From the NCBI RefSeq assembly GCF_030704685.1, contig NZ_JAUZDX010000006.1, forward strand, positions 124,001 through 188,000: a stretch of DNA of 64,000 nt. The letters run 5' to 3'. Source of the stretch: Acidovorax sp. A1169. Lineage in GTDB: Bacteria; Pseudomonadota; Gammaproteobacteria; Burkholderiales; Burkholderiaceae_C. A model generated the notes under the pieces. The model saw nothing but the letters and a program-made list of their open reading frames with translations, had not been told where the DNA came from and did not search any database. The number at the start of each line of letters is the position of its first letter. Position 1 is the first letter of the stretch. Positions 4,728 through 22,572 of this stretch are shown here, piece by piece. The translations under genes and the position numbers were made by a program.

Positions 4728-5026
4728 GCTCACGCAATCACCGATCGGCACACCGTACCCTGGATGCGGGGAACATGGCGCTCTGTGCCAGCGTGGAAGC
4801 TGCGATGCTGGTGCACGCGCGCAACGCGCCTGATTTTGGAACTGGCCGGATCCAGGAGGACGCCCACCTTCGAGCTGCATACATGCAAGCGGCTGCAGCT
4901 ATGCACGCTGCCGGCCTGCAAGCAATGGCGCAGGTCGAGGCCGCGCAGGTGTTGGCGGCTGCAATGGACAGGCGCACGGCAGCTGTAAAGCGACGGAATT
5001 GCACACGGGCGCTGTTGTTCCCATGA
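4724..5026 (+). CDS. Small hypothetical Ala/His-rich protein
   Basis: 100 residues starting MSSRNHRSAH, by the ATGA overlap with the AlpA-like gene. It is strongly alanine-rich and helical (LCASVEAAMLVHARNA, LRAAYMQAAAAMHAAGLQAMAQVEAAQVLAAAM), with a basic tail (DRRTAAVKRRN). Its own stop forms a second ATGA overlap with the next gene, so AlpA, this gene and the next two form one tightly coupled unit ending in the DUF927 gene. No recognised domain. Confidence 0.5.
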   Translation: MSSRNHRSAHRTLDAGNMALCASVEAAMLVHARNAPDFGTGRIQEDAHLRAAYMQAAAAMHAAGLQAMAQVEAAQVLAAAMDRRTAAVKRRNCTRALLFP

Positions 5027-5496
5027 CAGCGCCTATCGCCCCCGGTTCAATCCGTGCAGCCATGTCGCACATACCCGCCAGCCTGGCACGCGACGAGTGG
5101 GCGCGGGTGGGCATGAGCCGTCCTATGAACGAAGCGGATCACGCGGCCCACCTGCAGGCATGGTGCATCTTTCAACACGAAACCCTTTTTGGGCCGCTGG
5201 GGTTTGGCGAGCTGCTGCCGCACCAGTTGGCCGGCGTCGTGGAAAACGAGCGCATGGCCTTCTTCAAGGCGGACCACCTGGCAGAGCAGCGCCTCGATGA
5301 ACTGGCCGAGTTGCTTGTGCAGACGTATGCACCGGTTGCCCCCGAGGTCTGGCGCAAGCTGGATGAGGCTCGCGCTGCCCAGCAAGTGGCAACCACCCAC
5401 GGCGACAGCTGCCGCTACCTGCAGGCGGCGGAGCTGGCCTACCTGCGCCCCATCGTTTGGCGCAATGAAGAGTGGTTCAACCACCCTGGTACATGA
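5023..5496 (+). CDS. Chimeric small protein with a PriCT-like N-terminus
   Basis: 157 residues from the ATG at 5023 (overlapping the previous stop). Its first 31 residues (MTAPIAPGSIRAAMSHIPAS then LARDEWARVGM) closely match the first 31 of the next protein (MTTPITPDLIRAALAHIPAS then LPRDDWARVGM). After that the two diverge: this protein has a helical, acidic body (RLDELAELLVQTYAPVAPEVW) with no recognised domain. The shared opening is the start of the PriCT-2 primase-associated domain, so the gene looks like a fusion of a duplicated leader to another sequence. It ends in ATGA overlap with the DUF927 gene. It contains palindrome member 3 (5317-5332). Confidence 0.6.
   Translation: MTAPIAPGSIRAAMSHIPASLARDEWARVGMSRPMNEADHAAHLQAWCIFQHETLFGPLGFGELLPHQLAGVVENERMAFFKADHLAEQRLDELAELLVQTYAPVAPEVWRKLDEARAAQQVATTHGDSCRYLQAAELAYLRPIVWRNEEWFNHPGT
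5317..5332. repeat. 16-bp palindrome, member 3 of 4
   Basis: GTGCAGACGTATGCAC differs from the member at 3155 by one base. It is inside a coding region. Confidence 0.55.
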
Positions 5497-8423
5497 CAAC
5501 ACCCATCACCCCCGACCTGATCCGCGCAGCCCTGGCGCACATTCCTGCAAGCCTGCCGCGTGATGATTGGGCGCGGGTGGGCATGGCCATCAAGAGCGAG
5601 TATCCCGACACTACGGGCCGGGATCTCTTTGAGGACTGGAGTGCGACCGCAGATACCCACGATGCGCGGGCTACGCGCAGCACCTGGCAGAGCATCAAGG
5701 CGGGCGGCGGTGTCTCCATCAACACGCTGCTCTACATCGCCAAAGAGCACGGCTTCAAGCTGCCCAAGGCCACCGACTTGCCGGCCCCGCCCGACCCTGC
5801 AGAGCTGGCCAGGCGTGAGGCCGAGCGTGCTAAGCAGCGCAAGGATGAACAGAACAGCCGCCAGCTTGCACAAGCTGCAGCGGCAGCCGAGGCACTGGCC
5901 TTGTGGGATGCCGGCAGCGACAGCGGCACTAGCGCTTACCTGGCCCGAAAGGGCGTGCAGGCCTTTGGCGTGCGCTTCACGGCAGATGGCTGGATGCTGG
6001 TGCCGGTGCGTGATGCTGCTGGCAAGCTGTGGAACCTGCAGCGCGTCGCGCCAGAGCGCGCACGGTATGGAACAGACAAGCTGTTTTTGAAGGGCGGGCG
6101 AAAGGCTGGCCTCTGGCACTGGTGCGGTGACCCGGCCGGCGCTGATGTGCTGCTGATCGCCGAGGGCTACGCCACGGCCGCGAGTCTGCACCAGGCCACT
6201 GGCCGGCCTGTTGCCGTGGCCTTCGATGCCGGCAGTCTTGCGCCGGTGGCTAAGGCGCTGCGCCAGGCTTACCCGGCTGCTCTGCTGGTGCTGTGTGGCG
6301 ACGATGACCAAGCCACCGAAGCCCGCACAGGCACCAATACCGGGCGGGTGAAAGCGACGGCTGCAGCGCATGCGGTGGGCGGCCTGGCCGTGTTCCCTGA
6401 GGGCCTGCCCGAGGGCGGCAGCGACTTCAATGACATGGGCCAGGCGCATGGCATGGACGCCGTGAGCGAGTGCATCGAGGCCGCGATACATGCCAAGGCC
6501 ACAGAGCCCGCAGAGCCTGTGGACGAAGGGCAGGGCGGGCCAGGCGGCAATGCGCCCCCGCCTGGCCCGCCTGGCCCGCCTGGTGGTCCTGCTGGGCCTG
6601 GTAGCGGCCGTACGGGGGGCGGTCGATCCTTTGATCCCTTTATCGTTGATGACTCGGGTGTGTTGCATATCGGCGTGGACCGAGAAGGCCAGCCCAAACC
6701 GCCGCAGTGGGTGTGCAGCCGGCTGGATGTGCAGGCTCAAACCCATGATCAGGATGGCGCCAGTTGGGGCTACCTGCTTGGCTTTGCCGATCCCCGGGGC
6801 AATCCCAAGCAATGGGCTATGCCTGCCCGCATGCTGTCGGGTGATGGGGGGGAATACCGCGCTGTGCTGCTGAGTATGGGTCTGCAAATCGCCCCATCGT
6901 CTAGCGCTCGTAATCTGTTGACCCAGTACATCCAGACCCGCCAGCCAGGCGAGTTTGCGAGCTGTACGGACCGCATCGGCTGGCACGGCCGGGCTTTCGT
7001 GCTGCCGCATGAAACCATCGGCGACGATGCCGAGCGCATCGTGTTCCAGTCTGAAAACCAGATGGAGAACACCTTCCGGGTGAAGCACGATGCAGAGGCC
7101 TGGCGCGACCGCATTGGGGCGCTGTGCATGGGTAATTCCCGCCTGGTGTTCGCTGTGGCATCTGCATTTGCTGGGCCGCTGCTGCGCCCTGCAGGCATGG
7201 AGAGCGGCGGCTTCCATTTTCGTGGTGACAGCTCCAGCGGCAAGACCACGGCCCTGCGCCTGGCCGCCAGCGTGTACGGTGGCCCGAGCTACATGCAGCG
7301 CTGGCGCACCACCGATAACGCGCTTGAGGCCATTGCAGCGCAGCACTGCGATTCGCTGCTGATCCTCGATGAGTTGGCGCAGGTAGAGGGCAAGGTTGCA
7401 GGCGAGTGCGCCTACATGCTGGCCAATGAGCAGAGCAAGGCGCGCGCCACACGCAACGGTGCGCCACGTGCCCGCCTGTCCTGGCGCCTGCTGTTCCTGA
7501 GTGCCGGCGAGCTGGGCCTAGCGGACCACATGGCCGAGGGCATGAAGCGCACGCGCACAGGCCAAGAGGTGCGCATGGCCGACATCCCGGCCGATGCTGG
7601 CGCGGGCCTCGGCACGTTTGAGAACCTGCACGACTTTGCTGGTGGTGCTGCCTTCTCAAGTCACCTGACGCGGGAGGCACAGGTTTGCTACGGTGCACCA
7701 GGCCGTGCATTCCTTGAGTGGGCATGTGACAACGCCGAAGGCCTGGGCAAGCGGGTGCGCGCGCGCGTGCAGGCCCTGGCCAGGCAGTGGGTTCCCGATG
7801 GCGCCTCGGGCCAGGTGGAGCGGGTAGCCGCCCGGTTTGCGCTGGTGGGCGCTGCCGGCGAGCTGGCCACCGAAGCGCAGCTTACGGGCTGGCCCGTGGG
7901 TGAAAGCGAGCGGGCTGCATGCGTGTGCTTTGAAGCCTGGATGCGCGCACGTGGTGGAGCTGGCAATGGCGAAGTGGTATCCATGCTGCGGCAGGTGCGC
8001 CGCTTTCTGGAGTCGCATGGTGAAGGCCGCTTCACCTGGTGGCACCGGGCATCCGATGACCATAACGCCAAGACGTTGCAGCGGGCCGGATACCGCCGCC
8101 TGGTGGACAAGGATGGCAAGCCCATCAAGATGGCGAAACAGACGGCCGCGCCTGGAACGTCGGCCAGGGATGCGGAGATATACGAAGCCGCGACCCGTCC
8201 AGACGATGAGAGCACCAGCGTTGAATACTTCGTGCTGCCTGAGGTGTTCCGTGCCGAGGTGTGCCAGGGCTTCGACTACCAGGCCGTGGCCCGTGTGCTC
8301 TTTGAGCATGGGGCGTTGATCCCCGGTGCCGGCCGTGCATACGACTGCAAGCAGCGCTTGCCTGGCTTGGGCCTGTCCAACTGCTACCGCATCTCGCCGG
8401 CACTGTTCGCCATCGACGTGTAG
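5493..8423 (+). CDS. PriCT / Toprim / DUF927 replication-type protein
   Basis: 976 residues, starting at the ATG that overlaps the previous stop. Visible in order: a PriCT-2-like N-terminus (about 1-75); a Toprim fold (about 185-290) with AEGYATAAS giving the catalytic Glu and LCGDDDQ the Asp pair; a Gly/Pro collagen-like linker (about 349-378); and a DUF927 ATPase/helicase-like domain (about 383-800) with a Walker A GDSSSGKTT near 580 and a Walker B LLILDEL near 625. This is the primase-helicase layout used by satellite phages and integrative elements to replicate their own DNA. It is the last gene of an ATGA-linked series. A truncated copy of its 3' 40% lies at 9883-11247. Confidence 0.85.
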   Translation: MTTPITPDLIRAALAHIPASLPRDDWARVGMAIKSEYPDTTGRDLFEDWSATADTHDARATRSTWQSIKAGGGVSINTLLYIAKEHGFKLPKATDLPAPPDPAELARREAERAKQRKDEQNSRQLAQAAAAAEALALWDAGSDSGTSAYLARKGVQAFGVRFTADGWMLVPVRDAAGKLWNLQRVAPERARYGTDKLFLKGGRKAGLWHWCGDPAGADVLLIAEGYATAASLHQATGRPVAVAFDAGSLAPVAKALRQAYPAALLVLCGDDDQATEARTGTNTGRVKATAAAHAVGGLAVFPEGLPEGGSDFNDMGQAHGMDAVSECIEAAIHAKATEPAEPVDEGQGGPGGNAPPPGPPGPPGGPAGPGSGRTGGGRSFDPFIVDDSGVLHIGVDREGQPKPPQWVCSRLDVQAQTHDQDGASWGYLLGFADPRGNPKQWAMPARMLSGDGGEYRAVLLSMGLQIAPSSSARNLLTQYIQTRQPGEFASCTDRIGWHGRAFVLPHETIGDDAERIVFQSENQMENTFRVKHDAEAWRDRIGALCMGNSRLVFAVASAFAGPLLRPAGMESGGFHFRGDSSSGKTTALRLAASVYGGPSYMQRWRTTDNALEAIAAQHCDSLLILDELAQVEGKVAGECAYMLANEQSKARATRNGAPRARLSWRLLFLSAGELGLADHMAEGMKRTRTGQEVRMADIPADAGAGLGTFENLHDFAGGAAFSSHLTREAQVCYGAPGRAFLEWACDNAEGLGKRVRARVQALARQWVPDGASGQVERVAARFALVGAAGELATEAQLTGWPVGESERAACVCFEAWMRARGGAGNGEVVSMLRQVRRFLESHGEGRFTWWHRASDDHNAKTLQRAGYRRLVDKDGKPIKMAKQTAAPGTSARDAEIYEAATRPDDESTSVEYFVLPEVFRAEVCQGFDYQAVARVLFEHGALIPGAGRAYDCKQRLPGLGLSNCYRISPALFAIDV
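7662..7940 (+). repeat. 279-bp block identical to 10303-10581
   Basis: Base-for-base comparison shows no difference over 279 bases at a constant offset of 2641, whereas the sequence on either side differs at many positions. The block is inside the DUF927 gene. Confidence 0.8.
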
Positions 8424-8446
8424 GCGTTGCCCCAGGTCCCCCCATC

Positions 8447-9481
8447 ATGGCAACACCGAAAAAGACAGCCGCCGGCACCTGGCGCATGCAGATCGAGGTC
8501 GGCGGTGTTCGTGACAGCAACACCTTGCCTACCAAGCGCGAGATCCAGGAATGGGCAGCGCGGCGCTCCATCGAACTTAAGGCGGCCGCCTCGGGCCGCG
8601 CTGGCGAACTGCGGTCGCTGCAGGACGTGCTGCAGCGCTATGCCCTGGAGGTGAGTCCGGACAAAAAGGGGTGGCAGAAGGAAGCGATCCGGCTGAAGGC
8701 GTACCAGGGAAAAGCGCATGTGCTGCCACTCAAAAAGGCCATCACGGATCTGACCGAGGCGGATCTAATCGCCTGGCGTGATGACCGATTGAAAAAGGCT
8801 AGCCGGGGTGCTGTGCTGCGGGATATCACACTGCTGGGCTCGGTGCTGGAGCATGCACGGCGAGAGTGGAAGTACATCAGCAGCAATCCCATGCGTGACG
8901 TGTCGCGGCCACAGGAGCCGGACCATCGGGAGAGGTTGATCACTTGGCGGGAAACGAAACAGGTGTTGCGCAAGCTGGGGCACAAGCCCACGCGCCAGGC
9001 CGGCAACGTGCGCTCGGTGAGCCAAGCCGTGGCGCTGTGCTACCTGGTGGCGCTATCGACCGGCATGCGCGCCGGCGAGCTGGCCGGGCTGACCTGGGAC
9101 CGGGTCTACCCCGACTACGTGCGCCTGCGGGTGGCGGACACCAAGACCAGCACAGCGCGCGACGTGCCCCTGTCGCGCCGGGCGCGGGCCTACATTGCGC
9201 GGATGCGGGGATGGGACGATGAGCGGGTGTTCGGCGTTGCGACGGGAAGCCTCGATGCGCTGTTTCGCAAGGCGCGAGTGCGGGCGGGGCTGAGCGGGTT
9301 CACCTTCCACGACTCGCGGCACACGGCGGCCACGATGATCGCCGGCCGCATGCGAAGCCAGCACTTGCCGGCTCAGCAGGCGGTGCTAGACCTGTGCAAG
9401 ATTTTCGGGTGGAAGCGGATTGACCAGGCGCTGGTCTACTTCAACCCTGCAGCCAGCGACATTGCATCGCGGCTGGGCTGA
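8447..9481 (+). CDS. Phage-type tyrosine site-specific recombinase
   Basis: 344 residues, beginning MATPKKTAAGTWRM, 23 bases after the DUF927 gene. It has a short N-terminal arm-binding part, a SAM-like core-binding segment (about 60-150) and a complete catalytic domain. The catalytic residues are Arg208 in STGMRAGEL, Lys233 in DTKTS, H288-x-x-R291 in HDSRH, Trp322 in FGWKR and the nucleophile Tyr331 in VYFNP. All residues for activity are present. It is of a different family from the P4-type integrase tail at the start of the window. Its stop is 13 bases from the convergent HTH gene. In many elements of this type the attachment site lies just beyond the 3' end of such an integrase. Confidence 0.9.
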   Translation: MATPKKTAAGTWRMQIEVGGVRDSNTLPTKREIQEWAARRSIELKAAASGRAGELRSLQDVLQRYALEVSPDKKGWQKEAIRLKAYQGKAHVLPLKKAITDLTEADLIAWRDDRLKKASRGAVLRDITLLGSVLEHARREWKYISSNPMRDVSRPQEPDHRERLITWRETKQVLRKLGHKPTRQAGNVRSVSQAVALCYLVALSTGMRAGELAGLTWDRVYPDYVRLRVADTKTSTARDVPLSRRARAYIARMRGWDDERVFGVATGSLDALFRKARVRAGLSGFTFHDSRHTAATMIAGRMRSQHLPAQQAVLDLCKIFGWKRIDQALVYFNPAASDIASRLG

Positions 9482-9494
9482 TCTGCCGGCCTGG

Positions 9495-9743
9495 TCAGCG
9501 GCGGCCGGCCTCCCACTCCACCACCTCGGCCAGCAGCCATTGGCCGTCGGTCGCGGGCTCGGGGAAGTCCTTGCGGCGGACCATGGCGGTGAGGGTCTTG
9601 CTGCACACGTCCAGGCGCTCGCAAACCTGTTTGCGTGACAGCCTGGCACCCATGGTGCGAGTCAGCTGCAGAACGGTGTCTGTGAGGCGGCCCACCATGC
9701 TGGTGAGGGTGTCGATGCGTTCTATCAGGGCGGTATCGGTCAT
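9495..9743 (-). CDS. HTH protein with N-terminal coiled coil
   Basis: 82 residues on the minus strand from the ATG at 9743, with AAAGG about ten bases upstream. Residues 5-36 make a short heptad-like coiled coil (IERIDTLTSMVGRL, TVLQLTRTM). Residues 37-75 form an AlpA/excisionase-like helix-turn-helix (RKQVCERLDVCSKTLTAMVRR then KDFPEP and WLLAEVVEWEAG). It lies tail-to-tail with the integrase, which suits an excisionase or integrase regulator; that is inference from position. The next upstream sequence is the broken DUF927 copy on the other strand. Confidence 0.65.
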   Translation of the reverse strand: MTDTALIERIDTLTSMVGRLTDTVLQLTRTMGARLSRKQVCERLDVCSKTLTAMVRRKDFPEPATDGQWLLAEVVEWEAGRR

Positions 9744-10302
9744 TCGTTGCCTTTTGTAGGGCAGGGCATTTTGCAGTACCAGGTTGCAGCATCTCGCGCA
9801 GCTTGTGGCGGGGGGCGGCATGTATTGGTGCCTGTGGGCATCGCGAGCGGGTTTGCACATTCGCGGCAATCGCGCCAGAGGCAAAGCTACAGCGCTGCGC
9901 CTGGCCGCCAGCGTCTACGGTGGCCCGAGCTACATGCAGCGCTGGCGCACCACCGATAACGCGCTTAAGGCCATCGCCGCACAGCACTGCGATTCGTTGC
10001 TGATCCTGGATGAGCTGGCACAGGTAGAGGGCAAGGTGGCGGGCGAGTGTGTCTACATGCTGGCCAACGAACAGAGCAAGGCTTGCGCCACACGCAACGG
10101 CGCGCCACCTGCCCGCCTGTCCTGGCGCCTGCTGTTCCTGAGTGCCGGCGAGCTGGGACTAGCGGACCACATGGCTGAGGGCATGAAGCGCACGCGCACA
10201 GGCCAAGAGGTGCGCATGGCCGACATACCGGCCGATGCCGGCGCCGGTCTCGGCGCCTTCGAGAACCTGCACGACTTTGCAAGTGGTGCCGTCTTCTCCG
10301 GC

Positions 10303-10581
10303 CACCTGACGCGGGAGGCACAGGTTTGCTACGGTGCACCAGGCCGTGCATTCCTTGAGTGGGCATGTGACAACGCCGAAGGCCTGGGCAAGCGGGTGCG
10401 CGCGCGCGTGCAGGCCCTGGCCAGGCAGTGGGTTCCCGATGGCGCCTCGGGCCAGGTGGAGCGGGTAGCCGCCCGGTTTGCGCTGGTGGGCGCTGCCGGC
10501 GAGCTGGCCACCGAAGCGCAGCTTACGGGCTGGCCCGTGGGTGAAAGCGAGCGGGCTGCATGCGTGTGCTTTGAAGCCTGG
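10303..10581 (+). repeat. 279-bp block identical to 7662-7940
   Basis: Identical to the DUF927 segment at 7662-7940, with sharp edges at both ends. The flanks differ at many third positions and by whole codons. Confidence 0.8.
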
Positions 10582-11066
10582 CTGCGCGCACGCGGTGGGG
10601 CTGGCAATGGCGAAGTGGTCAGCATGTTGCGTGCCGTGCGGCGGTTCCTTGAGTCGCACGGTGAAGGGCGGTTCACCTGGTGGCACCGGGCATCGGATGA
10701 CCACAACGCCAAGACGCTGCAGCGTGCCGGCTTCCGCCGCATGGTGGACAAGGACGGTAAGCCCATCAAGAGCGATGCAGAGCACCAGCGGGAGTACGGC
10801 GAGTGCATGGCTCCGACCGATGGTGAGTGCGTGAGCGTTGAACACTTCGTGCTGCCCGAGGTGTTCCGTGCCGAGGTGTGCCAAGGCTTCGATTGCCAGG
10901 CCGTGGCCCGTTTCCTTCTGGAGCATGTGGCACTACCCCCCGGCGCCGGCCGTTCATTCGTCTGCAAGCAACGCTTGCCAGGCATGGGCCTGCCCAACTT
11001 CCACCGCATCAGGCCTGCGCTGTTCGCCATCGACGTGCAGCCGGTGGTTCCGGCTTGGCTGGGCTT

Positions 11067-11082
11067 GTGCACACGTCTGCAC
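11067..11082. repeat. 16-bp palindrome, member 4 of 4
   Basis: GTGCACACGTCTGCAC is the exact reverse complement of the member at 3155. A TTGT/ACAA extension is shared too. It lies in the read-through tail of the broken DUF927 copy. Confidence 0.55.
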
Positions 11083-11277
11083 GGCCTGCCGCCAGGCGGT
11101 AGCCACGCCGGCCGCCTGGTGGGGCGGGGCAAGATTTCACCCCGCGCCGCAATTTCTGAAACGCACCAAAATGTGCATCAGCGTTTTTTACGCTCGCGCC
11201 AGAAAGTGGGTTTGAGTTGTAACGGTGACAGGCCCGCACGCCCGTAAATGTGCGGAACTCGCGCTCTTGCCCGAAAT

Positions 11278-11950: not shown

Positions 11951-12463
11951 TCACCCCTGCCGGCGCCGCCACAGCTGCTGCCCCAGGAATCCCACGACCG
12001 CCACGTTGGTCAGCGCCACGGCGGCCGATGCCACGCTCGGGTGGTGCGCGAAGTGCCAGAGCTCGAACGGGATGTACAGCGCGCCCGAGAGCGCGCCCAG
12101 CCACTCGCCCCACCGCCGATCATTCCACAGGCCATAGGCTTCGGTAAAGCGCACCAGCACATAGGCCGTCGCGGCCAGCAACAAGGGACGGAGGTCGGCG
12201 CTGAGCAGTTGGTCGATGTCGGTGAGGACCATGGCAGGGTAGCGGTCACCGGGCTTGAGGCCAATATGGCCGATGAACGAAGCCACGATGTGGTGCAGGT
12301 CGTGGTGCAGCAGGCCCACGAATCCCAGGCTGGCCGCCAGCGCTGCAAAGCCCTTGAGCGCCTCGAATGCGGCGATGGCGCGCAATGCCTGGCGATGGGG
12401 CGGGGCGCCATCGCGTGCAGGCGGCTGGTTCGATGGGGTGGGTCGTCGGTGCATGCCTGCCAT
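11951..12463 (-). CDS. DUF2127 family membrane protein
   Basis: 170 residues with a basic/Pro-rich N-terminal tail, then four predicted membrane segments. These are ALRAIAAFEALKGFAAL, LLLAATAYVLVRFTEAYGLW, WLGALSGALYIPFELWHF and a last VALTNVAVVGFLG. The RFTEAYGLWNDRRWGEWLG and ALYIPFELWH motifs are characteristic of DUF2127, a poorly understood inner-membrane family. A second in-frame Met at the N-terminus would remove the Pro-rich tail, so the start is uncertain. It is transcribed away from the envelope operon's last gene with a 35-base gap, so it may be its final member. It marks the return to core-like DNA after the island. Confidence 0.8.
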   Translation of the reverse strand: MAGMHRRPTPSNQPPARDGAPPHRQALRAIAAFEALKGFAALAASLGFVGLLHHDLHHIVASFIGHIGLKPGDRYPAMVLTDIDQLLSADLRPLLLAATAYVLVRFTEAYGLWNDRRWGEWLGALSGALYIPFELWHFAHHPSVASAAVALTNVAVVGFLGQQLWRRRQG

Positions 12464-12498: not shown

Positions 12499-13095
12499 CT
12501 ATCGCCTGGGCTTGCTGGTGCGTGGCGCCCTGGGCGCCGGGCGCGCCAGGTCGGCATTGGTCTGCTCCAGCCAGAGCAGCGCATCCATTTGTGCCATGAA
12601 CCGGCGCAGGTAGTCCGGCGAAAGGGTGCGCATCAGGCCCAGCGAGCGCAGCATGAGCTTGTGCGAGTTGAGGGGGCCGGCGTTCTCGGGCGCCTTGTGC
12701 AGCGCCTGCGTGACCTGCTGCTCGGCGGAGATCTTGGACCAGACCTCGCTGAACTGGCGCACACTCTTCATCTCCGATGTGCTGGTGCTTTCGCTGGTGC
12801 GCACGTGGTCGGCCTCGGCCTGCGCGCGTGCAGCCAGGTCGCGGTTGAGCAGGGCCAGGGGCGAGTCCGTTGCGCAGGTGGCCAAGGGTGGTGCTGGTGG
12901 TGTGGCGGGCGCAGTGCCGGCCCGCGTGGCGTAGTCGGCCACGGCGGCCTGCAGCCGCTGCTGCAGCAGCGCCTGTACGGCGGGCGGCTGCGCCTGCATG
13001 CGCCGCGCCAAAGCCTCCAGGTAGTGGAATCGCGCGGGGTCATGGCCGTCGCTGCCATCCGCCTTCAGTGACTCCAGCGTGGGCTGCTCGCTCAT
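12499..13095 (-). CDS. DUF2894 family protein
   Basis: 198 residues, starting in ATGA overlap with the OmpA-like gene. The N-terminal half is helical (ALARRMQAQPPAVQALLQQRLQ) and joins through a Pro/Ala linker to a conserved C-terminal block (SVRQFSEVWSKISAEQQVTQ, LNSHKLMLRSLGLMRTLSP, DYLRRFMAQMDALLWLE). These blocks are the hallmarks of DUF2894. It has no signal or membrane segment, so it is expected in the cytoplasm. The tail is basic and Pro-rich. It is the fourth gene of the operon DUF3348-DUF802-OmpA-DUF2894, all overlapping by four bases, and likely a cytoplasmic partner of the motor-like membrane pair. Function unknown. Confidence 0.85.
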   Translation of the reverse strand: MSEQPTLESLKADGSDGHDPARFHYLEALARRMQAQPPAVQALLQQRLQAAVADYATRAGTAPATPPAPPLATCATDSPLALLNRDLAARAQAEADHVRTSESTSTSEMKSVRQFSEVWSKISAEQQVTQALHKAPENAGPLNSHKLMLRSLGLMRTLSPDYLRRFMAQMDALLWLEQTNADLARPAPRAPRTSKPRR

Positions 13096-13742
13096 GGCGG
13101 CTTGGGTTTGGTGGCCCGGGGCACAGGTGCCATCTCCACACGCCGGTTCTGCGCGCGGCCCTTTTCGTCGGCGTTGTCGGCCACGGGCTGTTCAGCGCCG
13201 AAGGCGGCGGCGAACACCTGGGAGGAGGGCATGCCCTCTTCGGCCAGTGCGCGCGTCACGGTCAACGCGCGCTGGGCCGAAAGCTCGAGGTTGTCGGCAA
13301 AGCGCTGGTTGCCGCCGCTGCGCAGCAGGGTGTTGTCGGTGAAGCCGCTCACCATCAGCATTTCGTCACGCTCGCGCAGGTACACCAGCAGGGGTTGCAC
13401 CAGGCTTGTCAGCAACTGGCGGCCTTCGGGCCGCAACTCGGCCGAACCCGCCCCGAACAGCACGCTGCCGCTGATGCCGATGCGGCCATTGCTCACGGTC
13501 ACGCGGCCGCTGGCCAGGGGGATGGCCAGGGCCTTCTCCAGGGCCATGCGGCGCTGCTCTTCCATCTGGCGCTTTTCCACTTCCTGCTTGAGGCTGGCCA
13601 CCAGATCGATCTGCACCACCAGCACGCCCACCAGGATCAGCACGAAGGCGCCCAGCAGGCCGGCCATCAGGTCGCCGAAGACGGCCCAGACCGGGGCCGT
13701 CTGTTCGGTGGCGTCGTCCAGGGTGTCGTCGTAGCCGGTCAC
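13092..13742 (-). CDS. OmpA/MotB-like protein, stator B-type partner
   Basis: 216 residues from a GTG start that overlaps the DUF802 stop as GTGA. One membrane helix (about 18-45) carries a conserved Asp in FGDLMAGLLGAF, as do MotB and ZorB at the ion-binding site. It is followed by a coiled linker and a peptidoglycan-binding OmpA-like domain (about 85-205). That domain has VSGFTDNTLL, NLELSAQRALTV and GRAQNRRVEM, the latter two being the NLxLSxxRA and N-x-R-R-V motifs. It would anchor to the cell wall and form an ion channel with the upstream protein. It is a motor-type pair rather than an outer-membrane porin. Confidence 0.85.
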   Translation of the reverse strand: MTGYDDTLDDATEQTAPVWAVFGDLMAGLLGAFVLILVGVLVVQIDLVASLKQEVEKRQMEEQRRMALEKALAIPLASGRVTVSNGRIGISGSVLFGAGSAELRPEGRQLLTSLVQPLLVYLRERDEMLMVSGFTDNTLLRSGGNQRFADNLELSAQRALTVTRALAEEGMPSSQVFAAAFGAEQPVADNADEKGRAQNRRVEMAPVPRATKPKPP

Positions 13743-16678
13743 GCGGCCACTCCCTGCGCCGATGCAGCTGCGGCCGCCTGGCCATGCAGGCGGCGCAGGT
13801 CTTCGACGATGCCCTGTTGCGAGGAGATGCTCAGGTCGATCACCTCGCGCGCCTGGGCCACGTAGTAGGCCAGTTGCTCATCGCTGCGGCCCAGCGACTG
13901 GCCGATGGCGCTTTCGATGCCCTGCAGGCCCTTCACCAGCTTGTCGTTGCTGGCGGTGAACAGGCCCACGCCATGGCTGAACGACTCGCCCAGGCTGGCC
14001 AGCTCCACGGCGCTGGCGGCGACGTGCACGGCCACCTCGTCGACCTTGCCGGCCTGCGTGCCCAGCGCTTCGCTGAACTGCTGGCCGGCCTGTTCCAGCA
14101 CCTGCGTGGCCGAGCCCACCATCGATTCGATGGCCGCACGCTGCTGCCCTGCGGCCTCGTTCACGGAATGCAGCAGGGCGGAGAGCTGCTCCATCATGGC
14201 CGTGCGCTCTTCCAATGCGATGTTGTCGCGCTCGCCCAGGCGCGTCATCTCCTGGCGCAGCTGGGTGATCACCTCGGCTGCAGCTTGCGGCACGTCGGAC
14301 GCCGTCTGCAGCAGCCGCGTGAGCGGCGCTTCGAGGGCCGAGCCCAGCGTGGCCAGATGTCCGGCCACGGCGGCCTGCAGGGTGTCCAGGCGGCCGACCG
14401 CAGCCTGGCCGCGCGCGGCCTCGTCGTCGCGCAGGGCCGCCAGCTCGGTGCGCCACACGCCGGTGAGTGCGTCCATGCGCTCGCCCTGGGCCTGCTCCCA
14501 GCGGGCCTCGGCGTCCACGCGCGCGCGCAGTAGCGCGTCGGACTGCTCCATCAGCCGGGCCGTGCTGCCCAGGGTCTGCTGCACCTGGCCGGACATGCGC
14601 TCGGTCAGCTGGGCGGCGGTGTCTTCGAGGGTGCGGTACAGGCCTTGCTGCAGCTCTGCGGCCTGGGCGCCTGCGCGCTGCAGCTCTGCGGTGACCGTGC
14701 CGGCCATGCCTTCCATGGAGCGGCTCCAGGCCTCCAGGCGCTGCTGGTCTGCCTGCACCTGGGCCGTGTGCGACTGGGCCACAGTGTCCTGCAGCGATGC
14801 CAGCAGTGCGTTGGCGCGCTGTTCGAAGGACTGTGTGGCCGCCTGCAGTGCCCGGTCGAGTTGCGTGGCCGCGCCCTCCAGGGCCTGGCTCACGGCGCGC
14901 TGCTGCTCCACTGTCTGGGTGCCTGCGCGTTGCCATTCGGCAGCGAGGGTGCCGGCCATGCCTTCCATGGACCGGTTCCAGCCTTCCAGGCGCTGCTGGT
15001 CGGCCTGGACCTGGGCCGTGTGGGATTGGGCGACCGTGTCCTGCAGCGATGCCAGCAGGGCATTGGCGCGCTGCTCGAAGGACTGCGTGGCTGCCTGCAG
15101 TGCGCGGTCGAGTTGCGTGGCCGCGCCTTCCAGGGCCTTGCCCATCGTGCGCTGCTGTTCCACCGTCTGGGCGCCTGCGCGCTGCCATTCGGCAGCGAGG
15201 GTGCCGGCCATGCCTTCCATGGAGCGGTTCCAGCCCTCCAGTCGCTGCTGGTCGGCCTGCGCCTGGGCGGTGTGCGATTGCGCCACGGTGTCCTGCAGTG
15301 CGACAAGCAGGGTGCCGGCCCGTTGGTCAAAGGCCTGGCTGGCCGTCTGCAGGGTCTGGCCCAGTTGCTCGGCGGCGCCGGCCAGTGCCTGGCCCGCTTC
15401 GCGTTGCTGTGCCGCGGCCTGGGCGCCTGCGCGCTGCCATTCGGCAGTGAGCGCGCTGGCCGTGCTCTCCATGGATCGGCTCCAGCCTTCCAGCCGCAAC
15501 TGGTCGGCGGCGGCCTGGGCGGCGTGGGATTGGTCCACGGTTTCCTTGAGCGAACCCAGCAGCGCACCGGTGCGCTGCTCGAAGCCCTGCGTCACGGATT
15601 GCAGCGCCCCATCGAGCTGCGCGACCAGATGGCCCTGGGTGTCTTTGTGGCTGTGCAGCGCGTCGGTCCAGGTGGCGGCCACCTGGCGGGCTGTACCCTC
15701 CCACTGGGCGGACAGGGCTTGCATCTGCGCATCGGTGGCCTCGCGCAGGCGCTGGTGCGAGCGCTCGGCCTCCTGTGCCAGGGCGGCCATGGCCTGTTCG
15801 ACCACGGGGCGGATGGTCTCGCCGGCCTGGCGGGCGCTGGTGGTCAGGCTCTCCTGCAGCGACGCGCCCACGGTGCTGGCCAGCGTGGTGTACGCACTGG
15901 CCGCCTCGCGGTGAAAGCCCTGCTGCTGGGTGACCAGTTGCTCGTTGAGCTGCCCATGGCGGCGCTCCAGGCCCTCCATCAGGCCCTGCAGGCGCTCGGC
16001 AATCAGTGGCATGGCCTGGGCCTGGGCCTGCAAGGCGGCAAACATCGCTTCGCGCCGGTGGGTCGCCGAGAAGGGCCGCAGCACGGTGGCGATGCGGGCA
16101 TCGAGCAGGCGCAGTGTCTGCAGACGCTCTCGGCGGGCGATGGCGGACATCAGGCCCAGCATGGCCGAGGTGGCGACGCCGGCCACCGAGGTGCCGAACG
16201 CCAGGCCCAGGCCCTTGATGGGCGCGGCCAGTGCCGCGCGGATGGCCTCGAGGTTGGACGATGCCTCCAGCGCGAACACGGCGCCATTGAAGGTGACCAC
16301 CATGCCCAGAAAGGTGCCCAGCATGCCCAGCATGACCAAGAGGCCCACCAGGTAGGGGGTGAGGGCCGGACCGGGCAGGGCCACGCGCTCGCCTTCGATG
16401 CGCTGGCGCACGGGCGTGCGCAAGGCGGGGTGCAGGCGCTCCAGCCAGGCACCCAGGTCCGCCTGCGGCTGATGAGCCGGGTCGTCGGCCAGCGCCGCAG
16501 CCAGCGAGGTGCTCGCCGAGCGGAACTGCGTCAACTCATAGGCGCCCAGCAGGTACACCCCGGCGATCACCGCTGTCATCGCCAGCGCCAGCGGGCTGGT
16601 CCCCACGAAGCCCCAGGCTACCCATCCCACCACCGCCAGGCCGGCTGCAAACACGCCGGCCATCACACTCTTGTTCAT
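13739..16678 (-). CDS. DUF802 protein, MotA/ExbB/ZorA-like with a long coiled-coil tail
   Basis: 979 residues. The N-terminal 180 hold four predicted membrane helices: two at about 5-48, then VGLLVMLGMLGTFLGMVVTF and IKGLGLAFGTSVAGVATSA. The LGTFLGM and AFGTSVAG pattern is that of MotA/ExbB/ZorA proton-channel subunits. The rest is a very long, Gln/Ala-rich coiled coil. Residues about 350-685 are four tandem 84-residue repeats (252 bp each) that are close to identical in DNA. The last 150 residues are again coiled coil. The order is that of the ZorA subunit of the Zorya anti-phage motor, but no other Zorya gene is here. It overlaps both neighbours by four bases. Confidence 0.85.
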   Translation of the reverse strand: MNKSVMAGVFAAGLAVVGWVAWGFVGTSPLALAMTAVIAGVYLLGAYELTQFRSASTSLAAALADDPAHQPQADLGAWLERLHPALRTPVRQRIEGERVALPGPALTPYLVGLLVMLGMLGTFLGMVVTFNGAVFALEASSNLEAIRAALAAPIKGLGLAFGTSVAGVATSAMLGLMSAIARRERLQTLRLLDARIATVLRPFSATHRREAMFAALQAQAQAMPLIAERLQGLMEGLERRHGQLNEQLVTQQQGFHREAASAYTTLASTVGASLQESLTTSARQAGETIRPVVEQAMAALAQEAERSHQRLREATDAQMQALSAQWEGTARQVAATWTDALHSHKDTQGHLVAQLDGALQSVTQGFEQRTGALLGSLKETVDQSHAAQAAADQLRLEGWSRSMESTASALTAEWQRAGAQAAAQQREAGQALAGAAEQLGQTLQTASQAFDQRAGTLLVALQDTVAQSHTAQAQADQQRLEGWNRSMEGMAGTLAAEWQRAGAQTVEQQRTMGKALEGAATQLDRALQAATQSFEQRANALLASLQDTVAQSHTAQVQADQQRLEGWNRSMEGMAGTLAAEWQRAGTQTVEQQRAVSQALEGAATQLDRALQAATQSFEQRANALLASLQDTVAQSHTAQVQADQQRLEAWSRSMEGMAGTVTAELQRAGAQAAELQQGLYRTLEDTAAQLTERMSGQVQQTLGSTARLMEQSDALLRARVDAEARWEQAQGERMDALTGVWRTELAALRDDEAARGQAAVGRLDTLQAAVAGHLATLGSALEAPLTRLLQTASDVPQAAAEVITQLRQEMTRLGERDNIALEERTAMMEQLSALLHSVNEAAGQQRAAIESMVGSATQVLEQAGQQFSEALGTQAGKVDEVAVHVAASAVELASLGESFSHGVGLFTASNDKLVKGLQGIESAIGQSLGRSDEQLAYYVAQAREVIDLSISSQQGIVEDLRRLHGQAAAAASAQGVAA
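14624..15631 (-). repeat. Four tandem 252-bp repeats inside the DUF802 gene
   Basis: Units run 15631-15380, 15379-15128, 15127-14876 and 14875-14624. The second, third and fourth are near-identical at the start (QLDRALQAATQSFEQRANA in the last two). Each encodes 84 residues, exactly twelve heptads, so unit gain or loss keeps both the frame and the coiled-coil phase. Confidence 0.8.
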
Positions 16679-17499
16679 TCCTGAATACCCGTTCTTTTGT
16701 TCTCGTTGCGGGCTGCTTCCAGCAGCCCCGTGATCGGTTGCAGGCGCACCTGCATTTCTGCCAGCAGCAGGGCCTGCAGGTCCTGCTCGAAGCTGGCCAG
16801 CCAGCCGCCCGCCCGGCGCCAGCGCAGCGGGTCATCGGCCTGGCCCGAATCCTGAAGCCGCGCCTGGTGGGCTTTGCGCAGTTGCACGAAGCGCCGCTCC
16901 AGGTGGCCGGGCAGCGAGGCCCACAGCCGCTGCTCGCGTGCGCCCAGCATCTGCTCCATCACCCCGTCCAGCGCCGCCAACTGCCTGAGCGTGGCCGAGC
17001 CCTTGAGCAGGCCGGCCCGCACCTGGGTGCGCAGTGCCACCAGGCGCATGTCCATCTGCTTTTGCTGTTCCAGGTAGCGTGGCCCGTGGGCCGCGAAATC
17101 GGCCTGGGCTTGCGGGTCGGGCTGCTCGACGGGCGTGTTGTCTGCGCGCTCGCGCACGGGCCTGGCCGGTTTGGCGGGTGCCGTGGCCAGGCGCGTGAGG
17201 TCCGCCTTGGCTTTCTGAAAGAGCTCCTCCAGTGCCAGGGCATCGAGGGCAAGGTCCTGCGGCACTGGTGCCTGCGCGGCGTGGGTCTCGATGGAGCGCA
17301 GCGAGCCGTTGAGCTCGACCGCATCCACCACGCTCAGCCATTGGCCGAGTTGCCCGGCCACATCGCTGCCCACCGACGCGCGCTGCGCCTGCGTCCATTG
17401 CGCAAGCAGGACGACGAGGCGTGAACTATCGAGTCGGTGGGGTAGGGGCATCCGGAAAAAACCAATCCACTGCGCCATGTCCTCTGGGAGGGCTGGCAT
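16675..17499 (-). CDS. DUF3348 family protein, first gene of the motor-like operon
   Basis: 274 residues to the ATG at 17499. Internal Met codons at 17478 (with an AGAGGA site) or 17451, where the family's usual RLDSSRLVVLLAQW opening begins, are likely alternatives. The N-terminus matches the DUF3348 opening (SSRLVVLLAQW, LGQWLSVVDAVELNGSL). A charged/Pro-rich middle (about 105-130) precedes a helical C-terminal half with LRTQVRAGLLKGSATLRQLA and HLERRFVQLRKAHQARL. It has no signal or membrane segment. DUF3348 is typically next to DUF802 in Burkholderiales, and here it overlaps DUF802 as ATGA. Function unknown; a cytoplasmic partner of the membrane motor is the natural guess. Confidence 0.85.
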   Translation of the reverse strand: MPALPEDMAQWIGFFRMPLPHRLDSSRLVVLLAQWTQAQRASVGSDVAGQLGQWLSVVDAVELNGSLRSIETHAAQAPVPQDLALDALALEELFQKAKADLTRLATAPAKPARPVRERADNTPVEQPDPQAQADFAAHGPRYLEQQKQMDMRLVALRTQVRAGLLKGSATLRQLAALDGVMEQMLGAREQRLWASLPGHLERRFVQLRKAHQARLQDSGQADDPLRWRRAGGWLASFEQDLQALLLAEMQVRLQPITGLLEAARNENKRTGIQE

Positions 17500-17992: not shown

Positions 17993-20113
17993 TTACAGGA
18001 ACTGGGCCCGTAGTCCGAGCATGATTCGCCGGCCGGCGGCGGGCTCGAAAAAGCGGCCATTGCCGTCGTTCACGATGAGCGAGCCGGCGTAGCGCCGGTC
18101 CAGCAGGTTATCCAGGCGCGCCCAGGCCTGCCAGCGCGGGCTCGCGGTGGCTTTGCCGAAGGTGTACCCGGCGCGCAGGCCCACCACCGCAAAGCCGGGT
18201 GCGGCTTCGCTGTTCACATCGTTCGCAAATACCTTGCCGGACACATCCAGCGTGGCGCCCAGTTGCCAGGCGGCGCCGGGCGTGTAGTCCAGCGCCAATT
18301 GCGCCACGTGGCGCGCGGTGCCGGGCAGGCGGTTGCCGGCGGCCACGCGGGCACCCCCTGCACCGCTGTAGGCATCACCGAAGAACGCATCCAGATAGGT
18401 GTAGGCGGCACGCGGCTTCCAGGCGCCGGCCTGCGCGCTCCAGGCCAGCTCCAGCCCACGGCGGCGCACGTTGTCGGCGTTCTGAAAGATGGTGCGGCCG
18501 TTCACCGTGGCGGCGGGCACGATCTCGCTGCGGCTGCGCGCCTCGAACCAGGCGGCCTGCACCTGGTGCACTGCTCCCTGCCACTTGGCACCGATCTCCA
18601 TCTGCCGGCTGCGCGAGGCGCCCAGGCCGAAGTTGGGCCCGGTGTTGTCCCGGCTGTAAGCCATCTCGGCCAGGGTCGGGGTCTCGAAGCCACGGCCCAG
18701 GTTGGCATACAGGTTGAGCTGGTCGCTGGCGCTCCACACCACCCCCAGCACCGGGCTGGTCTGGCGCCAGGTGCGGGCACCGCTGTCGTCGGGGTTGGTC
18801 GGGGTGATGAAGTGGTCGCTCACGCGCATGTCCACGCGACTGCTGCGCAGGCCGGCCACGGCGCGCCAGGTGGGCGTGATCCATGCGTCCACCTGCGCGA
18901 ACAGGTCGGTGTTGCCCGCCCGGTCGCGCTCGTTGCGCCGCAGGGCGCCCGGTGTGCCGTTCTGGTTGACCAGGCCCTGGCGCTGCTCTGCGAGCCGGTC
19001 GGCATCGATGCCCAGGGTCCAGGTGAGCGGCAGGCCCGAGGGTGTCCTGGCGCTGTGCGTCCAGGCCAGGCCCAGGCCGTGGTAGTTGCGGTCCAGGTCC
19101 ACCACGCCGCCTGCGCTGTTCTCGGCCGCGCCGCTGAACGAGAGGTACTGGGTGAGTTGGCGCGTGCCGCCATAGGCGCGTGCGCGCACGCTGTCGGCCG
19201 CGCCCAGTTGCCGCTCCAGCACCAGGCCCCACTGGTTCTGCGCCACCGACTTGCGGGTGCCGAACGTGCTAGCCACCTCGGGCGCCTGGCGTGGGTTGGC
19301 GTTGAACTGCGCGCGCGTCAGGCCCAGCGGGTCCTGCGCACCGGGCTGGTCGTAGAGGTTGATCAGTGCGGTGATCTTCGTGTCCGCATCGGGGCGCGCC
19401 ACCAGCTTGCCGTTGAGGTGGGTGCGCCGCGCGGCGCTGTGCTCGCGCCAGCCGTCGGTCTCGAAACGCGATACGTCCAGCAAGCCGCCCAGCGTGCGGT
19501 CGCCGAAGTCGAACGACACGTCCGCCAGGCGCTGGCCGAACGAGCCTGTCGCGATGGAGGCCTGCGCTGCGCCGCCCTCGCGCGGCTCGCGCGTGGTCAC
19601 GTGCAGCACGCCGCCAGCCGCATTGCCATAGAGCTGGGCCAGCGGGCCGCGCAGCACGTCCACCTGCGCGGCGGACTGCAGCTGCGCCGTGGCTGCCTGG
19701 CCCTGGCCATCGGGCATGGTGGCGGGGATGCCGTCCACCAGAATGCGCACGCCGCGCACGCCGAAGGTGGAGCGGGCGCCGAAGCCGCGCACCGCGATCT
19801 GCAGGTCCTGCGCATGGTTCTGCCGGTCCAGCGCCACCACTCCGGCCTGGCCGGCCAGCAGCTCCGACAGGTTGACCAGTGGCGTGGGCGCGGTGAAGCC
19901 ATCGACCTTCACGCTGGTATGGCTGGCCGCGCTGTCAAAGCGCCGCTGGGCCTGCGCGCTGCCCTGCACTTCGACGGGGGCGAGGGTGCCGCCTTCGCGG
20001 GTCTGTGCGGTGGCTGCGCAAGGCGCCAGACTGGCCAGCGCCGCGAATGCCGTGGAGAGTGCCTGTGCGCGGCGGTTGGCAGGAAGGCGGGGGTGGGCGA
20101 GGGAAGGGGGCAT
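17993..20113 (-). CDS. TonB-dependent outer-membrane receptor
   Basis: 706 residues. A signal peptide runs to about residue 36 (ALSTAFAALASLAPCAATAQ). A TonB-box-like GGTLAPVEVQGS follows, then a plug domain (about 60-170; VRGFGARSTFGVRGVRILVDGIP and RGPLAQLYGNAAGGVLHV are diagnostic). The rest is a 22-strand-type barrel that ends in a terminal Phe-Leu. Such receptors import siderophores, cobalamin or sugars in exchange for TonB energy. Nothing in the sequence fixes the substrate, and no Fur box or partner ABC transporter is seen. It lies tandem to the TelA operon with a 198-base gap. Confidence 0.9.
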   Translation of the reverse strand: MPPSLAHPRLPANRRAQALSTAFAALASLAPCAATAQTREGGTLAPVEVQGSAQAQRRFDSAASHTSVKVDGFTAPTPLVNLSELLAGQAGVVALDRQNHAQDLQIAVRGFGARSTFGVRGVRILVDGIPATMPDGQGQAATAQLQSAAQVDVLRGPLAQLYGNAAGGVLHVTTREPREGGAAQASIATGSFGQRLADVSFDFGDRTLGGLLDVSRFETDGWREHSAARRTHLNGKLVARPDADTKITALINLYDQPGAQDPLGLTRAQFNANPRQAPEVASTFGTRKSVAQNQWGLVLERQLGAADSVRARAYGGTRQLTQYLSFSGAAENSAGGVVDLDRNYHGLGLAWTHSARTPSGLPLTWTLGIDADRLAEQRQGLVNQNGTPGALRRNERDRAGNTDLFAQVDAWITPTWRAVAGLRSSRVDMRVSDHFITPTNPDDSGARTWRQTSPVLGVVWSASDQLNLYANLGRGFETPTLAEMAYSRDNTGPNFGLGASRSRQMEIGAKWQGAVHQVQAAWFEARSRSEIVPAATVNGRTIFQNADNVRRRGLELAWSAQAGAWKPRAAYTYLDAFFGDAYSGAGGARVAAGNRLPGTARHVAQLALDYTPGAAWQLGATLDVSGKVFANDVNSEAAPGFAVVGLRAGYTFGKATASPRWQAWARLDNLLDRRYAGSLIVNDGNGRFFEPAAGRRIMLGLRAQFL

Positions 20114-20311: not shown

Positions 20312-20992
20312 TCAGGCCATGCCCGCCAGGAAGTCCGGCTGCTGGAACTTCATCTCCAGGAACTTGCCGTTGGCCAGCAGGGCATGCGCATCGGCCCCTG
20401 CGACGTTGGCCACGATCTCGCGCATCTTGCCGTCGAGCAGGGCCAGTTGGTCGGCCAGGATCTGGCGCGCGGTCTTGCCGTCCGTGAGCACATGGGTGGT
20501 GCGAAACGCGGGCGGCAGGGCCACGTAGTTGGCCAGTGTCTCGGGCAGGTAGCGCAGCACCGTCTCGCGCACGGTGAACAGGTTGGCGTCGTGGTGGCTG
20601 CGCTCGCCGAGCAGCCGCGGCAGCACCTCGGCAATGGAGGTGCGCACGCTGCGCAGGTGGCCGTTCATGTCGGACGTGAGGTGCGGCGCAACGCCTGCAG
20701 CCAGGGTGTCCAGCCGGGCCAGCGTCTCTTCGATGGTGAGCGTGTCCTCGATGCGGCGCTCGATCAGGGGCGCCTGGCGGCCGGCCCAGCCCAGCAGCCA
20801 GCCTCCCGCATAGAGCCCGGCGGTAATGATCAGCCAGCCCGGGCCGATGACGCCCGCGAACAGCAGCACCGGCCCGAGCAGCGCCAGCGCGCAGCCGGCG
20901 ATGTTGCCGTTGCTGTACAGGGTGAGCAGCAGCCGCAGCTTGAGCGGGCGGCGGCCCTGCCCGGCCTTGCCGGTGGAGGAAACGGTTGGCAT
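20312..20992 (-). CDS. Membrane protein of the TelA operon, possibly XpaC-like
   Basis: 226 residues from the ATG overlapping the upstream stop (TGATG). Two close membrane helices (about 25-70: NIAGCALALLGPVLLFAGVIG, WLIITAGLYAGGWLLGW) precede a cytoplasmic helical region with IEDTLTIEETLARLDTLAAG and RETVLRYLPETLANYVALPP. That arrangement, plus the TelA partner, resembles the B. subtilis xpaC-yaaN pair, in which YaaN is TelA-like and XpaC is a two-TM protein. The XpaC link is inferred from context and architecture, not from a recognised motif. Confidence 0.6.
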   Translation of the reverse strand: MPTVSSTGKAGQGRRPLKLRLLLTLYSNGNIAGCALALLGPVLLFAGVIGPGWLIITAGLYAGGWLLGWAGRQAPLIERRIEDTLTIEETLARLDTLAAGVAPHLTSDMNGHLRSVRTSIAEVLPRLLGERSHHDANLFTVRETVLRYLPETLANYVALPPAFRTTHVLTDGKTARQILADQLALLDGKMREIVANVAGADAHALLANGKFLEMKFQQPDFLAGMA

Positions 20993-22572
20993 CACTGGTA
21001 ACCCCGGATCTCCTTGAAGACGAGCGCCAGCGCCGCCTTGCGCCCGTCGAACACCCGTCCGCCCGTGAGCTGGGCCAGGGCCCCCATGTCTGCATTGCTG
21101 GCTTCGCCGAACAGGATGGGGAAGACGCGCGTTGCCTGCCCGCTGCCGGCCATGCGGTTGCGGAAGGCGTCGAGGTTCGGGCCATCGGTGTTCACGCCGT
21201 CTGTGAGCAGCACGATGCTCACGTAGCGCTCGGGGTCGCTGGCGCGCTCTTTGGCGGCCAGAGCCTGGGCCTGCAGCAGGGCGGCATAGATGCCGGTGCC
21301 ACCCGAGGCGCTCAACGCATCGGCATAGGCGGTGACCTGGGCCTGGCTGCCCGCCAGCGAGGCGCGCTCGAAGTTGACCCGCACCGGATCGCCCACGGTG
21401 TCGGAGAATGACAGCAGCACCACCCGCTCGCGGCTTTGAAAGCGCGCGTAGCGCGCGCTGGCCGTGCTTGCCTGACCCCCGGCCAGCACCTTCAGGGCCT
21501 CGCGCATGGCGTCGATGCGTGGGCCCTGCATCGATCCGCTGGTGTCCAGCACGAATATCGAGGTGGCGGGCCGGCGCCATTCGCCCTGGTAGGCCGAGAG
21601 CACCGCGTCGATCACTTCCAGCCGGTTGGGAAAGCTCAGCTCCGCCACGGTGTCGCTGGGCAGGCTGGCGGGCAGCATGATGTCGGGCGCCGTGGGGCGC
21701 AGGAAGGCATCGGCAGCCAGTTGGCGCTGCAGCGCAGGCGCCTTGAGGGCGGCCACCAGGCGGTCATAGGCCCCGCGCTGCTCAGCGCGCAGCAGCATCA
21801 GCGGGTAGTCGGCGGAGATCACGCCGTCCCTGGGGTAGACCAGCGCAAGCCCGTCCGCCGCAGCCAGCTTCTCGTTGGTGCGCAGGATCACGGCCTCGTA
21901 GTTGACCATGCCGTCGAGCGCCGCAGGGTCCTTCACGAAAGCTTCGGCCAGCCAGCCCGAGCTGCCGGCCGTGAGCTTCTGGCCCGACAGGAAGGCGGTC
22001 AGCACCTGGGTGTTGACCTCGGCGATGTCCAGGTCCTCTGTCTTGCCGGCCACGGCCGAGGCCACGGCGAACAGCGCGCTCATGCCGGTGTTGGAACTCG
22101 TCGGGTTGGTCATGGCGTAGCGCAGGCGCCCGGCGCCTGCGGCTTTGGCGATGTCGGCCCAGGTCGGGGCCTGCCTGTCCCAGCCCAGCGCGGCGGCCTT
22201 GACCGTCTTGACGCCCAAAGCCACGCGCGAGTAAAAGAGCTTTTCGCGCGCCAGCGGTTTGGCTGCAAGGGCCAGGGCCGGGTAGGCGCCGTTGGGCGGC
22301 AGGATGGCGTCGAACTGCTCTCCGGCGTTGATGCGTTCCACGATGTCCAGCGTGCCCGCATAGGAAAGCTGCAGCCGCACGTTGGCATCGGCGGCCGCTT
22401 TGAGCAGCGCGGGTTCGATGTCCTTGATTTCCGAACCCGCGAGCACGCTGAAGATGGCCTGCGGGGCCGCCGCCTGAGCGGGCGCCGCCGTGCCATCTTC
22501 GCGCTGGCCGCAGCCGGCCAGAGCCAGCATCAGGCCGAGGGCTCCGGCCGCCAGCAGGCGGGCGCGGCGCAT
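20992..22572 (-). CDS. Lipoprotein with solute-binding and von Willebrand A domains
   Basis: 526 residues. A lipobox signal (LALAGC at residues about 16-21) predicts lipoprotein export. The next 290 residues form a periplasmic-binding-protein fold (FSVLAGSEIKDIEPAL, TNPTSSNTGMSALFAVA). From about 340 a VWA domain follows, with a DTSGSM MIDAS motif, the conserved Thr in LLTDGVNTDG, and a final helix. The fusion of a ligand-binding fold with a VWA metal-dependent adhesion fold is unusual. It starts two bases after the TelA stop. Confidence 0.85.
   Translation of the reverse strand: MRRARLLAAGALGLMLALAGCGQREDGTAAPAQAAAPQAIFSVLAGSEIKDIEPALLKAAADANVRLQLSYAGTLDIVERINAGEQFDAILPPNGAYPALALAAKPLAREKLFYSRVALGVKTVKAAALGWDRQAPTWADIAKAAGAGRLRYAMTNPTSSNTGMSALFAVASAVAGKTEDLDIAEVNTQVLTAFLSGQKLTAGSSGWLAEAFVKDPAALDGMVNYEAVILRTNEKLAAADGLALVYPRDGVISADYPLMLLRAEQRGAYDRLVAALKAPALQRQLAADAFLRPTAPDIMLPASLPSDTVAELSFPNRLEVIDAVLSAYQGEWRRPATSIFVLDTSGSMQGPRIDAMREALKVLAGGQASTASARYARFQSRERVVLLSFSDTVGDPVRVNFERASLAGSQAQVTAYADALSASGGTGIYAALLQAQALAAKERASDPERYVSIVLLTDGVNTDGPNLDAFRNRMAGSGQATRVFPILFGEASNADMGALAQLTGGRVFDGRKAALALVFKEIRGYQ

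Follow-up and report, generated by a model that had tools for sequence, protein, structure and literature searches.

How does a phage-sensing membrane motor pass its signal into the cell? This open question is raised by a locus of Acidovorax sp. A1169, where positions 12499-17499 of the minus strand are filled by four open reading frames with the look of a motor operon. Positions refer to the window, the whole stretch of 64,000 nucleotides that was analysed. The genes are transcribed in the order DUF3348, ZorA, ZorB, DUF2894, and neighbours overlap by four bases each (ATGA, GTGA and ATGA). A sequence-only reading had described a DUF3348-DUF802-OmpA/MotB-DUF2894 operon here, and both its limits, which are exact to the base, and its four-base overlaps are confirmed. 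The four genes are as follows.

16675-17499, minus strand: DUF3348 protein, 274 aa (Pfam PF11828, 5.4e-54; PADLOC ZorG3, 2.9e-62)
13739-16678, minus strand: ZorA of type III, 979 aa, with a MotA/ExbB-like membrane part and a cytoplasmic tail of about 750 residues (PADLOC ZorA3, 3.2e-281; Pfam DUF802, 2.5e-11)
13092-13742, minus strand: ZorB of type III, 216 aa, GTG start, with one N-terminal membrane helix and an OmpA-like peptidoglycan-binding domain (PADLOC ZorB3, 5.3e-105; Pfam OmpA, 4.2e-17; NCBIfam NF006547, 341 bits, cut-off 194)
12499-13095, minus strand: DUF2894 protein, 198 aa (Pfam PF11445, 4.1e-50; PADLOC ZorF3, 1.3e-63)

All four proteins match Zorya type III models in PADLOC-DB (E 2.9e-62 to 3.2e-281), ZorA through PDLC00647 (3.2e-281) and three further ZorA3 models (range 1.8e-234 to 3.2e-281), and ZorB through PDLC00651 (5.3e-105). 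NCBIfam is less informative: ZorA has a weak match to ZorA_2, at 40 bits against a cut-off of 100, and NF006547, a family named “hypothetical protein”, is the sole model above its cut-off among those shown for ZorB. The locus thus combines a ZorA of the ZorA3 family, a ZorB with its aspartate and OmpA domain, and flanking DUF3348 and DUF2894 genes. Among the 80 best-matching named relatives, out of at least 434, 73 keep the same four-gene order, far more than chance would give, and in the other seven the locus reaches a contig end. Judged by its sequence, the operon belongs to Zorya type III, a subtype named in 2021. It is under purifying selection, with dN/dS of 0.02-0.45 wherever the ratio exceeds zero. 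Each of the four genes was compared in 10 close pairs, and two of them in one extra pair; ZorA is represented in these values by its first 390 residues, and in the pair G085-G186 both rows are shifted alike, so that codon is still compared with codon.

In its accessible text, the paper that named the subtype (PMC8565338) reports 6,401 such loci. In E. coli, at least one phage out of five plaqued less well in the presence of the system of Stenotrophomonas nitritireducens DSM 12575, in which ZorA, ZorB, DUF3348 and DUF2894 genes are likewise grouped. Anti-phage activity was thus seen in the Stenotrophomonas copy, whereas the Acidovorax copy is known from its genes alone. That description, together with the PADLOC matches, rules out an undescribed machine, and the earlier reading was only partly borne out: a motor-type pair with a long tail, two extra proteins and a likely defence role stands, while “unknown purpose” gives way to a system described and phage-tested in 2021 and “distinct machine” is out of date. 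We consider it highly probable that the locus, taken as a whole, encodes an anti-phage system of Zorya type III made of a motor pair, a rod and two helical partners. The type of machine is therefore already known; what is new is a modular, in-phase ZorA tail and a core-like distribution within one genus. No mention of either was found in the open-access literature on Zorya type III, as far as its accessible text goes, and other reports may exist.

The membrane half of the machine carries the residues expected of an ion-driven pair.

13671-13673, minus strand: ZorB D24, the ion-path aspartate, present in 81 of 81 aligned sequences (80 relatives and the window)
16313-16315, minus strand: ZorA T122, the conserved threonine of an LGTFLG stretch, at least 97% conserved in 78 ZorA
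16187-16192, minus strand: ZorA T163-S164 of an FGTSVAGV stretch, at least 97% conserved in 78 ZorA

Residues 100-174 of the window's ZorA align with a type I-like ZorA (E 1e-6), and in this alignment T122 pairs with a threonine and T163-S164 with a TS. PDB chains to which the OmpA domain of ZorB aligns include those of MotB and PomB. A search of ZorA against the MotA/TolQ/ExbB Pfam family gave no match at E 0.1 or better, which is compatible with a distant relation. Primary structure therefore indicates that ZorA and ZorB are a MotA/MotB-like pair with an ion-path aspartate, Ser/Thr-bearing ZorA helices and an OmpA-type domain; the membrane aspartate and the cell-wall-binding domain of the earlier reading are both upheld.

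The same parts are present in Zorya types I and II (PMC11890865; PDB 8VVN and 8VVI), which share the ZorAB pair, the membrane aspartate, the Ser/Thr-bearing helices, an OmpA-type wall-binding ZorB and a rod-like ZorA tail. According to the available portions of PMC11890865, the assembly of these types was solved as 5:2, and D24, peptidoglycan binding and the tail are needed for defence, ZorB D24 being crucial in both types. The flagellar stators MotAB and PomAB likewise have a two-part ion-driven design with a membrane aspartate and a wall-binding OmpA domain, but the locus differs from them in its very long ZorA tail, in an operon free of flagellar genes and in finding no MotA Pfam match (E 0.1).

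Types I and II carry ZorC and ZorD, or ZorE, whereas the two further proteins here are predicted to be all-helical. The DUF3348 model (folded without its first Met) has a pLDDT of 86.6 and a pTM of 0.80; that of DUF2894 has a pLDDT of 80.8, but a pTM of 0.39. Compared with the PDB, the two models gave no convincing relative and no recognisable effector fold, a result that counts against the defence explanation. PADLOC models of ZorC, ZorD and ZorE matched none of the four genes (E 0.1) and none of ten neighbours (E 1e-5), so the locus lacks the ZorC plus ZorD, or ZorE, that beside ZorAB marks types I and II. The earlier statement that no known Zorya effector is present therefore holds for ZorC, ZorD and ZorE in these 14 genes, but it overlooks that the DUF3348/DUF2894 pair itself defines type III. 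The names of the pair are swapped between sources: DUF3348 is ZorF and DUF2894 is ZorG in the accessible text of PMC8565338 and PMC11890865, and they are ZorG and ZorF, respectively, in PADLOC-DB 2.0.0 (models PDLC00652-PDLC00658).

Within the ZorA tail we identified a tandem repeat that is visible in both DNA and protein.

14576-15583, minus strand: four tandem 84-residue modules, ZorA residues 366-449, 450-533, 534-617 and 618-701, encoded by a 252-bp DNA repeat

Tandem Repeats Finder (TRF) reports it in the window's zorA as period 252, 3.7 copies and 81% matches at 14663-15592. Across the genus, 38 loci contain the start of ZorA and 36 its stop; ZorA cut before the stop were excluded, and no module count includes G170, whose zorA is shifted inside the repeat. 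In the 35 whole-readable ZorA a module profile found one, two, three, four and five copies in 3, 13, 16, 2 and 1 proteins, respectively. Raw length ranges from 724 to 1057 residues, and after subtraction of 84 x (n-1), where n is the number of modules, all 35 fall between 719 and 733. Neighbouring modules, whose identity ranges from 32% to 87%, align best at an offset of exactly 84 in every one of the 55 pairs. Start points taken from the profile gave spacings of 84 in 45 pairs, 85 in 7 and 83 in 3, and the deviating values are a matter of match edges. Module number must have changed at least eight times on the operon tree, which includes the first 390 residues of ZorA and hence about 25 residues of the first module. 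In the window's nearest relative (L055, genome G170) the shift of zorA within the repeat, relative to the window, may come from a fault in the assembly or mean that the gene is broken.

Hydrophobic residues in the repeat recur with a period of 84/23 = 3.652, at a power of 5.1 versus 0.1 for 84/24, in keeping with the long coiled-coil-like tail noted earlier. One module is thus 23 turns, so that gain or loss of a module leaves the packing face in phase. If the tails were fully helical, their reach in Acidovorax would run from about 74 to 124 nm. Component size in types I and II is well conserved according to the accessible text of PMC11890865, whereas the tail here varies in whole modules.

Modular tails extend beyond Acidovorax. 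Tandem modules were found in 19 of 54 whole ZorA from outside the genus (L151-L206), and the same test found none in the other 35, which weighs against the proposed reading. The main module lengths of the 19 are 113, 69, 91, 62, 135, 94, 102 and 95 residues, with 84 in one Rhodoferax (L154), which was counted with Acidovorax in the comparison of nine lengths; secondary lags of 40, 58 and 98 (all from one group) and double-length lags were excluded from it. At 3.644 residues per turn, lengths of 84, 113, 69, 91 and 62 correspond to 23.05, 31.01, 18.94, 24.97 and 17.01 turns, and lengths of 135, 94, 102 and 95 to 37.05, 25.80, 27.99 and 26.07, with 94 the poorest fit. Random sets fitted equally well in 1 of 20,000 cases for nine lengths with the period left free, and in 5 of 20,000 when the eight lengths other than 84 were tested at a period preset to 84/23, the control being uniform integers in a model without easier detection of in-phase duplications. 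The nine “lineages” behind these figures are groups formed by module length and record name, with kinship among groups ignored. When each group's own period (3.62-3.64) is used, 135 (37.29), 113 (31.22) and 95 (26.17) fit less closely and 94 (25.97) fits more closely.

Duplications that stay in phase may be more readily detected or better tolerated, and in both cases they suggest a continuous bundle. Type I-like ZorA tails share a similar hydrophobic period (3.61), and no tandem modules were found in any of the 11 that were readable among 12 loci (L222 gave no open reading frame, and L217, L218 and L224 fell below the family cut-off). Whether the type III tail is a phase-locked modular rod, with each module close to a whole number of turns at about 3.64 residues per turn, is in our estimation an evenly balanced matter. 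The same even balance applies to the idea that selection preserves an unbroken rod that stays in register even as its reach changes, which would follow from length changing by whole modules that are each near whole turns.

On the model of types I and II, five ZorA would surround two ZorB. A disturbance of the cell wall caused by phage would then lead ZorB to grip peptidoglycan and the channel to open, and the resulting ion flow would rotate ZorA together with its rod. DUF3348 and DUF2894 would most likely be helical proteins of the cytoplasm that partner the rod, either carried on it or gating it, and replacing the DNA-acting ZorC, ZorD or ZorE, and movement of the tail near the entry site would most likely switch them and so block infection. 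Rod length may evolve by gain and loss of whole modules in Acidovorax and some other lineages with the helical packing kept in phase, as would be expected if the rod must remain an unbroken bundle that passes motion or force.

Expression data from another genus bear on a defence role in two ways. The accessible part of PMC12584637 reports a change, of unstated direction, in the first gene or first two genes of a Zorya III operon when B. cenocepacia is infected. Zorya III is not among the systems that this part calls transcriptionally active, which counts against the defence explanation.

A further challenge comes from distribution. DUF3348 was found in 39 of 47 Acidovorax genomes (that of the window included), one match in each, and in 36 of the 42 of good quality; rpoB itself was recovered from 41 of these 47 drafts. 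All four genes are present at 35 of the 39 loci, and the remaining four are cut by contig ends. Seven genomes without DUF3348 could be placed on an rpoB tree of 39 genomes, where two are paired, four make up a clade and the last is an incomplete draft; in G156, the eighth, rpoB is only partial, and this genome is absent from the placement. The clade of four (G175, G179, G193 and G194) looks like a single loss. Distances of the genes correlate with those of rpoB across 29 genomes (DUF3348 0.60, ZorA 0.59, ZorB 0.60, DUF2894 0.55), and for each gene none of 2000 permutations did as well. The value for DUF3348 also rules out a separate evolutionary course for this gene within the operon. Searches with DUF3348 (at 1e-5) and ZorB (at 1e-30) matched 0 of 50,697 phage records, and 27 of 72,556 plasmid records were matched, those among the 20 matches listed measuring 366 kb to 2.6 Mb and hence being chromid-like.

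We therefore read the operon as resident and mostly inherited in Acidovorax, with several moves, as it occupies at least four different flanking contexts within the genus, mostly clade-bound under our own grouping of neighbours. This near-core, mostly vertical pattern is unusual for a defence gene and counts against the defence explanation. The main rival is accordingly a motor that resides in the cell envelope and does housekeeping work, for which phage protection on overexpression would be a side effect. In its favour are the single match per genome at a frequency close to that of rpoB, the correlation with rpoB distances, the few clustered absences, and the rarity in phage and plasmid records. 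Genome frequency alone is weak evidence because HSDR_N, of type I restriction, is found in 42 of the 47 genomes as well (0-5 matches each), and absence from phages does not distinguish type III because a query with type I ZorA likewise gave no match at 1e-30 among plasmid or phage records. The type I ZorA model itself was over its cut-off in 0 of 47 Acidovorax genomes, with weak matches in 12. Outside the genus the gene is far from universal: of 150 genomes from the wider family 42 carry DUF3348, and it occurs in 13 of 299 across the phylum at E 0.001, 12 of them over the cut-off (own genome included in each count). Given also the several contexts within Acidovorax, and a homologue that protects E. 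coli from phage in the accessible text of PMC8565338, we regard a housekeeping motor as unlikely, and an anti-phage Zorya type III system remains the preferred reading.

The surroundings of the operon are varied. None of the ten neighbours scanned matched a known defence gene (PADLOC, E 1e-5), which counts against the defence explanation. Upstream, at 17993-20113, lies a gene for a PqqU-like TonB-dependent receptor (573 bits against an NCBIfam cut-off of 1200), which adjoins the operon in 3 of 38 other Acidovorax loci, all from the window's clade, some loci being cut by contig ends. Beyond it, a solute-binding/VWA protein (20992-22470) and a TelA toxic-anion resistance protein (22575-23807) are encoded on one shared strand. 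A DUF2127 membrane protein is encoded at 11951-12463, 35 bases downstream of the operon, and among the fetched Acidovorax loci its gene adjoins the operon in G163, G166 and G170 and in no other. An integrated element lies next to these genes at 4311-11247, comprising an AlpA-type regulator (4311-4727), a DUF927/PriCT-2/Toprim replication protein (5472-8423) and an integrase (8447-9481), followed by a second partial copy of the C-terminal part of the replication protein (9784-11247, 86% identical over 404 aa). The arrangement looks like the result of two related elements inserting at one site.

A stator of flagellar or Tol/Ton type that powers motility, secretion or outer-membrane transport would fit the alignment of the ZorB OmpA domain with MotB and PomB chains and the adjoining receptor gene, but it is very improbable given the ZorA3 matches (1.8e-234 to 3.2e-281) of a protein that finds no MotA/ExbB Pfam match at E 0.1, the restriction of that receptor to the three loci of one clade, and an operon with no flagellar or secretion gene.

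In types I and II, tail mutations abolish defence and the tail is only incompletely resolved, according to the accessible text of PMC11890865. Type III rods with one to five whole modules occur in close relatives, so their length and phase could be varied by simple deletion, and the modular tail makes the role of the rod testable, since cuts in phase and out of phase can be compared. If the tail is indeed a phase-locked rod, it would be as expected of a component that conveys rotation or force to a distant point, unlike a floppy tether. Finally, a Zorya type that is resident and mostly inherited within one genus bears on whether such systems are mobile defence genes or a standing part of the cell.
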